Under the pieces are notes generated by a model that saw nothing but the letters and a program-made list of their open reading frames with translations, was not told the DNA's origin and searched no databases. Both the position numbers and the translations under genes were made by a program. From NCBI GenBank assembly GCA_035561135.1, contig DATMYA010000018.1, positions 62,001 through 126,000 of the forward strand: a DNA stretch of 64,000 nt. The letters are read 5' to 3'. The DNA is from Clostridia bacterium (GTDB taxonomy: Bacteria; Acidobacteriota; Terriglobia; Terriglobales; Acidobacteriaceae). Below, in pieces: positions 12,371-14,126 of this stretch; the first letter of the stretch is position 1, and the number at the start of each line of letters is the position of its first letter.

Positions 12371-12445
12371 GGCGCGGTAGCCAAGCGGTAAGGCAGAGGT
12401 CTGCAAAACCTTTATTCGGCGGTTCGATTCCGCCCCGCGCCTCCA
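12371..12445 (+). tRNA. tRNA-Cys (anticodon GCA), integration target
   Basis: The acceptor stem is GGCGCGG/CCGCGCC, with encoded CCA and anticodon loop CTGCAAA (GCA). The length is 75 nt with CCA. The anticodon loop to the 3' end is repeated 1.7 kb downstream, as expected when an integrative element uses the tRNA 3' end as its attachment site. Confidence 0.93.
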
Positions 12446-12448
12446 AGA
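12400..12448 (+). repeat. att-like direct repeat, left copy (inside tRNA-Cys)
   Basis: 49 bases running from the tRNA-Cys anticodon loop to 3 bases past the CCA are repeated in the same orientation at 14078-14126 with one mismatch. The last 39 bases are identical. Confidence 0.9.
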
Positions 12449-12492
12449 TTTTCAAGTACTTACAAATTCCCCACCTGTTGACCAGTTCAGCA

Positions 12493-12517
12493 CTGTAGAC
12501 GAAATTGTAGACAGTTC
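12493..12517 (+). repeat. sub-terminal island repeat, left copy
   Basis: A 25-bp sequence made of two TGTAGAC units, 22/25 identical and in direct orientation to 13951-13975. It starts 45 bases inside the left attachment repeat. Possible recombinase arm-binding site. Confidence 0.65.
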
Positions 12518-12711
12518 GTGCTTCCACCTGCCGTTTTCGTCCTGACGGGAATGACGGTGAACTCCCGAACACCAGACCTCAGTTGACCGACCGCTACACC
12601 GTTTTAGGCGAGATGACGGCGCGGCGTTCCGAATCAGGCTTGTGTCCCGTTTTTTTGTGATCCGAGTTGAACCTTGCAGCATCTCAATTGAAAGCACTCA
12701 AAGAGGGCATC

Positions 12712-13566
12712 ATGCGCGATGCAGCAACAAACAACGAAACGGGATATCCGAGAGTTTTGGTAGTAGACGATAACGAACAGGTGCGTTCATCGTTAGAGGC
12801 CGCATTAGCAATCAGCCAATTTCGGGTTACCACAGCAGCAAACGTGGGTGAGGCTCTGCATCTAATCGATACGGAGCAGTTCGACGTGCTGCTCTGTGAC
12901 TTGCATATGCCCGGAGCGGGTGACGGCTTCACAGTGGTGAGTGCGATGCGCCATACGAACCCAGACGCGGTCACACTGGTGTTTACTGGATACCCCGCGT
13001 TGCAAGAGGCCATGGATGCCATCCTGTTGCAAGCGGACGAAATCCTTGTGAAACCGATGGCTCTTCCGACGCTTCTCACACTCATTCGTGAGAAGTTACA
13101 GAAACGGGGGGCGCGGAAGCTGACCAACCCCGAACGAGTAGCCGCCATATTGGAACGTGATGCGTTGGTGACTATCGATGATTGGCTGGTGCGAGTTGAG
13201 CGTGAGGGGGAACTGACCCGCGTGCCACTCGGCAAGGAGCAGCGCACAGGGCACCTTCCCAAATTGCTTCAGGAACTTGTTCATCGATTGCGGGTTCCGC
13301 GAAGTCTTGGGACGAAACAGGTCTCGCACGCTGCCGTCGAGCACGGAAGAACCCGCCATGAACAAGGCTATTCAATTCCGATGATAGTAGAGGAATCTCG
13401 CATTCTTCAGGTCAGCATATTCCAAACCTTACAGAACAACCTGAGCACCGTCGATTTTAGCCTCTTGCTTATCGACGTAATGACCATAGCCGATGAAGTT
13501 GACTCGCAACTAAAGCAGACAATCAGCAGCTTCACGGAACAGGAGATGGGGGAGGCAGCGGCCTAG
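12712..13566 (+). CDS. response regulator with C-terminal RsbRD_N-like domain (island cargo)
   Basis: The 284-aa protein begins with a receiver domain (about 14-130): VLVVDDNE, phospho-acceptor D63 (LLCDLHMPG), T92 and K114 (ILVKPM). Residues about 140-275 form a helical domain resembling the RsbRD N-terminal sensor (LVTIDDWLVRVE, LPKLLQELVHRLRV, EHGRTRHEQGYSIPMIVEESRIL). The chosen ATG has AGAGGG upstream; a TTG 45 bases earlier is possible. It is the only intact gene in the tRNA-Cys island. The same sensor-like domain occurs alone at 1475-1936. The output mechanism is unknown; a stressosome-like partner switch is a guess. Confidence 0.8.
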   Translation: MRDAATNNETGYPRVLVVDDNEQVRSSLEAALAISQFRVTTAANVGEALHLIDTEQFDVLLCDLHMPGAGDGFTVVSAMRHTNPDAVTLVFTGYPALQEAMDAILLQADEILVKPMALPTLLTLIREKLQKRGARKLTNPERVAAILERDALVTIDDWLVRVEREGELTRVPLGKEQRTGHLPKLLQELVHRLRVPRSLGTKQVSHAAVEHGRTRHEQGYSIPMIVEESRILQVSIFQTLQNNLSTVDFSLLLIDVMTIADEVDSQLKQTISSFTEQEMGEAAA

Positions 13567-13862
13567 GAATTCGACCTTCCGGTCTGCTGGTTGCAGTGCC
13601 GCCCTGCTGAACCTTTCTGAAACGGGTCAGTCATGATTCTGGAAAAGTCGTGAACGGTAGAAGGCTGCTGGGAGATTTCGCAGAGCATGGATGCCATTTC
13701 AATCCGCTCATTGATGAAGGCTTCTAAAGCCGAAGCAGCGAACACGATAGTTATTAGCGCTTCTTCATGGTTTGGTTCCAACGAAGACGAAGTCGAAATC
13801 ACGTCTGCGTTTCGGACGGCAATGTAAAGGAAATTGAGCGAGTTATGAAGTACACCAGCCAT
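13563..13862 (-). pseudogene. possible fragment of a hypothetical protein
   Basis: A 99-codon frame whose middle (ITIVFAASALEAFINERIE) looks like the N-terminal part of helical hypothetical proteins that are normally longer. The C-terminal 40 residues are not family-like and the frame ends in the stop codon region of the convergent receiver gene, with a 4-base overlap. No ribosome site is seen at the ATG. I read it as a truncated passenger of the island, but it might be a genuine short gene. Confidence 0.4.
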
Positions 13863-13950
13863 AGCGTGGGTATTCTCGTACGCGTGTAGGTTTTGGTGAA
13901 CAACAAGGCAGATAGGCCATCAGGATTGGACGTCCCGGCTCCCACGTCAA

Positions 13951-13975
13951 CTGTAGACGATTCTGTAGACAGTTC
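13951..13975 (+). repeat. sub-terminal island repeat, right copy
   Basis: This is the partner of 12493-12517, differing only in three consecutive central bases. Just to its right, 13979-14062, a GTTGTGG-rich stretch is partly repeated in inverted orientation (CACAACACCC), further hinting at a recombination site. Confidence 0.65.
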
Positions 13976-14077
13976 CTGATGTTGTGGGGTGTTGTGGGTT
14001 GGTACGAGATTTTGTAAGTCGTTGATTTTGCTACTGTGCAACACTCCACAACACCCTGCCACAGGTACAGGGTGCGC

Positions 14078-14126
14078 TCTGCAAAATCTTTATTCGGCGG
14101 TTCGATTCCGCCCCGCGCCTCCAAGA
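14078..14126 (+). repeat. att-like direct repeat, right copy (tRNA-Cys 3' fragment)
   Basis: A copy of the tRNA-Cys anticodon-loop-to-CCA segment, without the 5' half, so not a functional tRNA. It marks the right end of the island. Confidence 0.9.

Follow-up and report, generated by a model that had tools for sequence, protein, structure and literature searches.

Cis-mobilizable elements (CIMEs), as defined in PMC5704250, have lost their genes for integration and transfer and retain attL and attR. In Dehalococcoides, according to PMC3146451, islands follow one another in tandem behind the tmRNA (ssrA) gene. A copy of the 3′ end of this gene bounds each island, and only some of the islands hold the integration module. 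Units moved by the enzyme of another element, as outlined in PMC11389934, include MITEs and CALINs, and the same source names PICI, P4-like elements and tycheposons as phage satellites.

The locus that we describe here lies in a 64-kb window, the whole stretch of DNA analysed, which corresponds to positions 62001-126000 of contig C18 in a source genome of 4.19 Mb (G000). It consists of a tRNA-Cys gene followed by a unit that measures 1,678 bp from core to core (Table 1). A preliminary description of this DNA had proposed that the 3′ half of the tRNA-Cys gene is duplicated around the unit and that the unit has sub-terminal repeats, and both proposals hold: the two cores agree over 49 nt with one mismatch (a repeat search extends them to 62 nt at 90%, start-to-start 1678), and the sub-terminal repeats, which have the same orientation, are 86% identical over 29 nt. 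Each of these repeats is itself made of two TGTAGAC half-sites 12 nt apart. The crossover point would most likely be the anticodon loop, because the displaced core copy begins there. The preliminary description did not contain the inverted pair TCAAnnACTTACAaa (the two inner sites of Table 1), and TCAAnnACTTACA-like inverted sites occur once between arm and core at either end. The TGTTGTGG repeats of the right end are possible candidates for directionality-factor sites. Elsewhere in the window, ARAGORN and Rfam identify a tRNA-Sec gene at 8060-8158.

Table 1. Features of the tRNA-Cys mini-island and its upstream flank, in window coordinates.
Feature	Position	Strand	Remarks
Upstream flank: ABC-transporter ATPase gene and tRNA-Gly (12148-12222)	11269-12222	+	Common to many family genomes
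tRNA-Cys(GCA), target gene	12371-12445	+	ARAGORN; Rfam RF00005, 67.3 bits; 3′ part is the left core copy
attL core, 49 nt	12400-12448	+	Runs from the anticodon loop to slightly beyond the tRNA; direct repeat of 14078-14126
Inner site TTTTCAAnnACTTACA beside attL core	12452-12469	+	Inverted relative to 14008-14025; pair identity 83%
Left putative arm pair CTGTAGACGAAATTGTAGACAG	12492-12520	+	12-nt period; 48 nt from tRNA end
Cargo gene, receiver protein	12712-13566	+	284 aa from ATG 12712; 299 aa if TTG 12667 is used
99-aa ORF inside island	13563-13862	-	No family match; perhaps a gene fragment or no gene
Right putative arm pair CTGTAGACGATTCTGTAGACAG	13950-13978	+	Direct orientation; 127 nt before attR core (CTGCAAAA)
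TGTTGTGG direct pair, right end	13980-13997	+	Inverted copies at 14046-14063; kept in G167 (alignment)
Inverted inner site TTTTGTAAGTCGTTGA	14008-14025	+	Repeat search; kept in G167
attR core, displaced tRNA-Cys 3′ half	14078-14126	+	1 mismatch relative to attL
Island ends			Left end reads AGATTTTCAAGTACTTACA; right end TGTTGTGG ... attR core

Judged by its sequence, the island comes close to a CIME, the nearest known kind, in that attL and attR are kept and integrase and transfer genes are missing; descent from an ICE or IME is possible. Its core repeats and arm pairs are placed as in intact elements, there is no integrase, and the sole supported gene encodes the receiver protein; the tRNA 3′ end as target and the tandem neighbours seen in relatives add to the likeness, whereas the very small size (1.7 kb), the primase/helicase-like and KAP NTPase genes of the related intact element in G183, and the existence of a related island with shared ends and other cargo set it apart. 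With autonomous tRNA genomic islands it has in common the tRNA and the displaced fragment, but no integrase gene lies inside. The Dehalococcoides islands are similar in forming tandem units behind one RNA gene, some of them without an integration module, but they use a serine recombinase, belong to another phylum and are larger than the window unit. MITEs and CALINs also consist of ends without an enzyme, with or without cargo; there, however, a transposase or integron attC sites are involved, whereas here the att sites are of the phage type and lie within a tRNA gene. The hallmark of MITEs is the terminal inverted repeats of a transposase, whereas the main end repeats of the window island are direct and its 18-nt inverted pair is internal, beside the cores. 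Phage satellites are small, tRNA-integrated and helper-dependent and usually have their own integrase, replication or packaging genes; the window island is likewise small and located at a tRNA but has no integrase, replication or packaging genes. A literature search conducted largely without subscription journals yielded no account of such mini-islands, or of tRNA islands in this group.

The + strand of the window contains four copies of TGTAGAC, namely the four arm half-sites. The preliminary description had suggested looking in the source genome for TGTAGAC-type repeats near integrases. The exact pair pattern is found in the whole genome at the island arms only (two places; the next best sites are two mismatches off), and the most similar integrase that the genome encodes (34% identical) is located at a tRNA-Leu and has different arms (TGTGCCCA). 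When up to three mismatches are allowed, the pattern is no commoner in the whole genome than its reversed control (56 versus 98 matches), so that only the exact pair carries weight; shuffles of the window with three mismatches allowed give 0.25 matches on average, and 2 of 100 shuffles reach two.

Islands with integrases were reached via the tRNA end in 41 relatives and then via the tRNA end combined with the inner site in 300 family genomes, 28 of which (32 matches) show GCGCCTCCA and then TCAAnnACTTA behind the tRNA end. In the genome G218, a 372-aa tyrosine integrase sits directly inside the attL of a tRNA-Cys, with its C-terminus toward the tRNA. Relatives of this integrase occur in 75 of 349 class genomes, and ARAGORN detects a tRNA at 15 of 21 G218-type loci, including Cys, Met, Thr, Ser, Lys, Asp, Arg, Pro and others. 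Depending on the element, the half-site pairs spaced at 12 nt between tRNA and integrase read TGTGGGGAC, TGTAGCG, TGTAGTG, TGTAGGGG or TGTGCCC, and some loci have none. Two of these elements are intact and bear an integrase. That of G351 (20.2 kb) has TGTAGCG arms in direct orientation, 47 nt from the tRNA and 128 nt before the core; that of G183 (14.7 kb), which also carries primase/helicase-like and KAP NTPase genes, has TGTAGTG arms, again direct, 48 nt from the tRNA and both 119 and 139 nt before the core. For a third candidate (G113), the second core was absent from the 40 kb searched. The corresponding distances are 48/127 in the window and 48/126 in the related genome G167 described below. 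Because intact integrase-bearing elements share this layout in near-identical register, the sub-terminal repeats of the window island are, by their position and context, very probably arm-type sites of a tRNA-targeting tyrosine-integrase clade. In the first 120 nt behind the tRNA, 14 of 30 tRNA-Cys attL loci have a pair of 7-mers with a period of 11 or 12 nt, whereas such a pair occurs in 3.5% of 120-nt segments drawn at random from the window. At these 30 loci (from the 32 matches), taken as 3-kb segments in which an integrase deeper inside would be missed, the integrase profile detects 5 intact and 10 partial (E<0.001) genes and 1 weak match, and nothing at 14 within ~1.5 kb.

Two further loci deserve mention in their own right. 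A 45-kb IMG/VR contig (L250) carries an integrase 56% identical to that of G218, which adjoins a tRNA-Cys-end-like sequence with TGTAGGGG-type arms. In the genome G015 (C13:100001-175000; L066-L068 and L076), three att copies are located at one tRNA-Cys, ~29 and 38 kb apart, and their arm types differ between ends, as repeated integration would give.

The island itself is without an integrase, as the preliminary description had claimed: the window gives no match to a profile made from 30 integrases, and the 13 Phage_integrase matches of the genome are all on other contigs. We found no helper integrase with TGTAGAC arms in 300 family genomes, 399 class genomes or viral contigs. One scan of viral contigs for TGTAGAC arms produced three matches, none of them a helper, and no match was left when the inner site was required; 18 further arm matches in viral contigs were rejected as coding sequence with no tRNA adjoining the arm. 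In phage and plasmid records, the right end of the island remained unmatched. Downstream of the island, the window encodes a 772-aa protein (17009-19327, - strand), a 62-68% relative of which adjoins the tRNA-Leu integrase of the same genome (C8:459400; L053:2-933).

The closest counterpart of the island occurs in G167, a member of another genus of the same family, which has two integrase-less islands in tandem behind tRNA-Cys. The first (L129:3021-5328; 2.35 kb) contains an HTH and HipA-like kinase pair and has arms of another type (AAGCGGACT pairs). The second, island B, measures 1,564 bp from core to core and has ends like those of the window island, the left 121 nt aligning at 88% and the right 182 nt at 82%, core included. 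Between the cargos of the two, blastn finds no match: island B encodes a 252-aa protein without a Pfam or NCBIfam match, for which a DUF3800 assignment was consequently dropped. Island B also holds the remnant of an integrase C-terminus, covering 54 profile positions and matching the integrase of G218 at 66% identity over 56 aa.

Presence of the same arrangement in all relatives, in which the preliminary description would have seen an old duplication, is not what we observed: both island ends were matched in only 2 of 398 family genomes, G000 and G167, and the DNA after tRNA-Cys varies. This comparison, which covers family genomes of other genera, shows no strict empty site. Many genomes of the family share the upstream neighbourhood of tRNA-Cys, with a response regulator, an ABC ATPase and tRNA-Gly. 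The three proteins tested immediately beyond the island (14568-16977) have no match in any relative locus compared, which indicates that the 3′ side of tRNA-Cys is variable. In G007 (L065:4126-4441), three tandem units ~144-148 bp apart, each with a 24-nt tRNA-Cys end, directly follow tRNA-Cys.

Arms of the TGTAGAC type (TGTAGAC, TGTAGTC, TGTAGAT and near variants) were found behind tRNA ends at 11 sites, chosen by hand, in 9 genomes, the window included. The tRNAs concerned are tRNA-Cys, tRNA-Pro and tRNA-Arg, plus one other tRNA end, and the arm lies exactly 48 nt from the tRNA end at 8 of the 11 sites (41, 46 and 47 nt at the others). Among the genes near such arms are those for a MazE-like antitoxin and a PIN toxin in G040, for a PemK/MazF-like toxin in G428, for a DndB/DpdB-like protein in G424 and for a CAAX-protease-like protein in G011. 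The set also includes G457 and G470; the search for a second core covered the window, G167, G428 and G011, where a copy is present, and G040, G424 and G533, where none was found. In G428 (L192:1178-3210), tRNA-Pro is followed by two partial cores, the first interval being ~1.8 kb long and containing the PemK/MazF-like gene and the second <200 bp. The integrase profile detects an intact gene at 0 of 12 TGTAGAC-type loci, several of which are short contigs or contig ends and may hide one beyond, and the only integrase sequence among them is the C-terminal remnant of G167. Statistics do not support the idea that TGTAGAC loci are poorer in integrases than others (0/12 versus 5/30 intact).

Several matches stand outside the 11-site count. 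Class-wide matches of the form CTGTAGTCGAT.TTGTAGAC, mostly in family f6 (L198-L210 and L212), were rejected as coding-like and without an adjoining tRNA. The arms at L191, L193, L194, L197 and L211 have no adjoining tRNA either, and L185 and L167 were likewise not counted. In G126 (L131), the arm is upstream of a tRNA 3′ fragment and represents a right end. The scan of 300 family genomes gave further TGTAGAC-arm matches in G258, G123, G093, G231, G275, G289 and G246.

The only family-supported gene of the island encodes a two-domain signalling protein, as the preliminary description had recognized, with a Response_reg domain (E=6.7e-22) and a weak RsbRD_N match that falls below the curated cut-off. 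The phospho-acceptor Asp78 is present (299-aa numbering; homologue alignment). Among 19 family members, Pfam detects Response_reg in all 19 and RsbRD_N in 10 at E<=0.01 (best 1e-5). In the AlphaFold2 model (mean pLDDT 82.7, pTM 0.53) the C-terminal part is all-helical, and the best 50 PDB matches listed, all of them receiver-domain proteins, are uninformative on that part. A role in partner switching or stress signalling might be guessed at from the RsbRD_N match. Homologues that are 50-70% identical over the full length occur in many genera. A protein search of the genome_contigs collection with the cargo gives receiver-domain matches only (28-34%), and PHROGs matches are limited to families of unknown function. 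As a rule, the cargo gene is independent of such islands, since neither a tRNA nor an integrase-profile match was present at any of the 19 homologue loci scanned (L030-L048; 0/19 for each). Compared with the closest homologue (G111, 70%), there are 59, 48 and 161 differences at codon positions 1, 2 and 3, respectively, the pattern expected if purifying selection had acted over the long term.

We are confident that the unit is an integrative element that lacks an integrase and bears the ends of this clade, whatever its origin. The geometry of the intact elements, together with a second island holding other cargo in another genus, supports the view of the preliminary description that this is an island integrated at tRNA-Cys without an integrase. 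In the mechanism that we propose, a tyrosine integrase of the clade would have inserted the unit at the anticodon loop of tRNA-Cys. Its catalytic domain would bind the tRNA core and the inner TCAAnnACTTA sites and its N-terminal domain the TGTAGAC pairs, and the bound enzyme would fold both ends together before recombining them. This integrase would be supplied by another element, the unit being a passenger with exchangeable cargo, presumably immobile at present for want of a matching enzyme. That the integrase acted in trans, from another element, is a proposal that we favour, though at about even odds. It agrees with the shared ends and exchanged cargo in two genera, the lack of any integrase trace, the intact cargo and the finding of this arm type at several tRNAs where an integrase is missing. 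Against it stand the lack of a TGTAGAC-armed helper and of an identical copy at a second site, the restriction of both ends to 2 of 398 genomes, the mismatch between the attR and attL cores, and the fact that 0/12 is not clearly below 5/30 intact integrases.

Alternatively, the island may be a relic, which we regard as a serious contender while leaning slightly against it. A TGTAGAC-armed element with this cargo would have integrated and then deleted its integrase and most of its genes, becoming a strict CIME, and the G167 island would have been reduced independently. Decay in place is favoured by the frequency of integrase remnants beside attL (10/30 partial versus 5 intact at tRNA-Cys sites) and by the one in island B of G167, whose similarity to the G218 integrase is noted above; the source genome has no cognate integrase, and PMC5704250 describes such decay to CIMEs, which are often found in tandem with other elements. 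However, the window island retains no trace of an integrase, and its cargo ORF is intact, with full-length similarity of 70% to 50% to homologues in other genera. In addition, decay would require two independent reductions to ~1.6 kb that both kept the two ends, and TGTAGAC-type arms recur at several tRNA types with an intact integrase at none.

Movement in cis only, through accretion, whereby a second element with matching ends integrates alongside and the pair leaves jointly, seems improbable for this island: it has no second element beside it and no more tRNA-Cys core copies downstream in the contig, even though tandem islands do follow tRNA-Cys in both G167 (two units, neither with an integrase) and G015 (three att copies) and the accretion of CIMEs is reported in PMC5704250. 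A duplication of the tRNA 3′ half at this locus, by chance or long ago and without any mobile element, is very unlikely given arm pairs at both ends in the register of intact elements and G167 ends that enclose other cargo, although tRNA-Cys fragments also form short tandem units such as those of ~145 bp in G007.

Returning to movement by a borrowed integrase, we put forward, tentatively and with some doubt, a broader proposal: the window island would belong to a family of integrase-less, single-cargo mini-islands with TGTAGAC arms of their own, present in at least 9 genomes of one class and at several tRNA targets. These islands would swap cassettes for toxin-antitoxin, DNA-modification-like and signalling functions, and an unseen tyrosine integrase would move them in trans. 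The reading of the repeats as arm-type sites is new, as are the enzyme-less mini-islands with other single cargos in relatives. Island finders based on integrases miss units of this sort, and the signature of an arm pair with a 12-nt period, 48 nt from a tRNA end, offers a handle for finding them and for pairing them with integrases. If such units are common, ~300 bp of ends plus a borrowed enzyme could be enough to carry single genes for defence, toxin-antitoxin functions or signalling from one tRNA site to another. A family of islands moved in trans, if real, would be for phage-type integration the counterpart of what a MITE is for a transposase.
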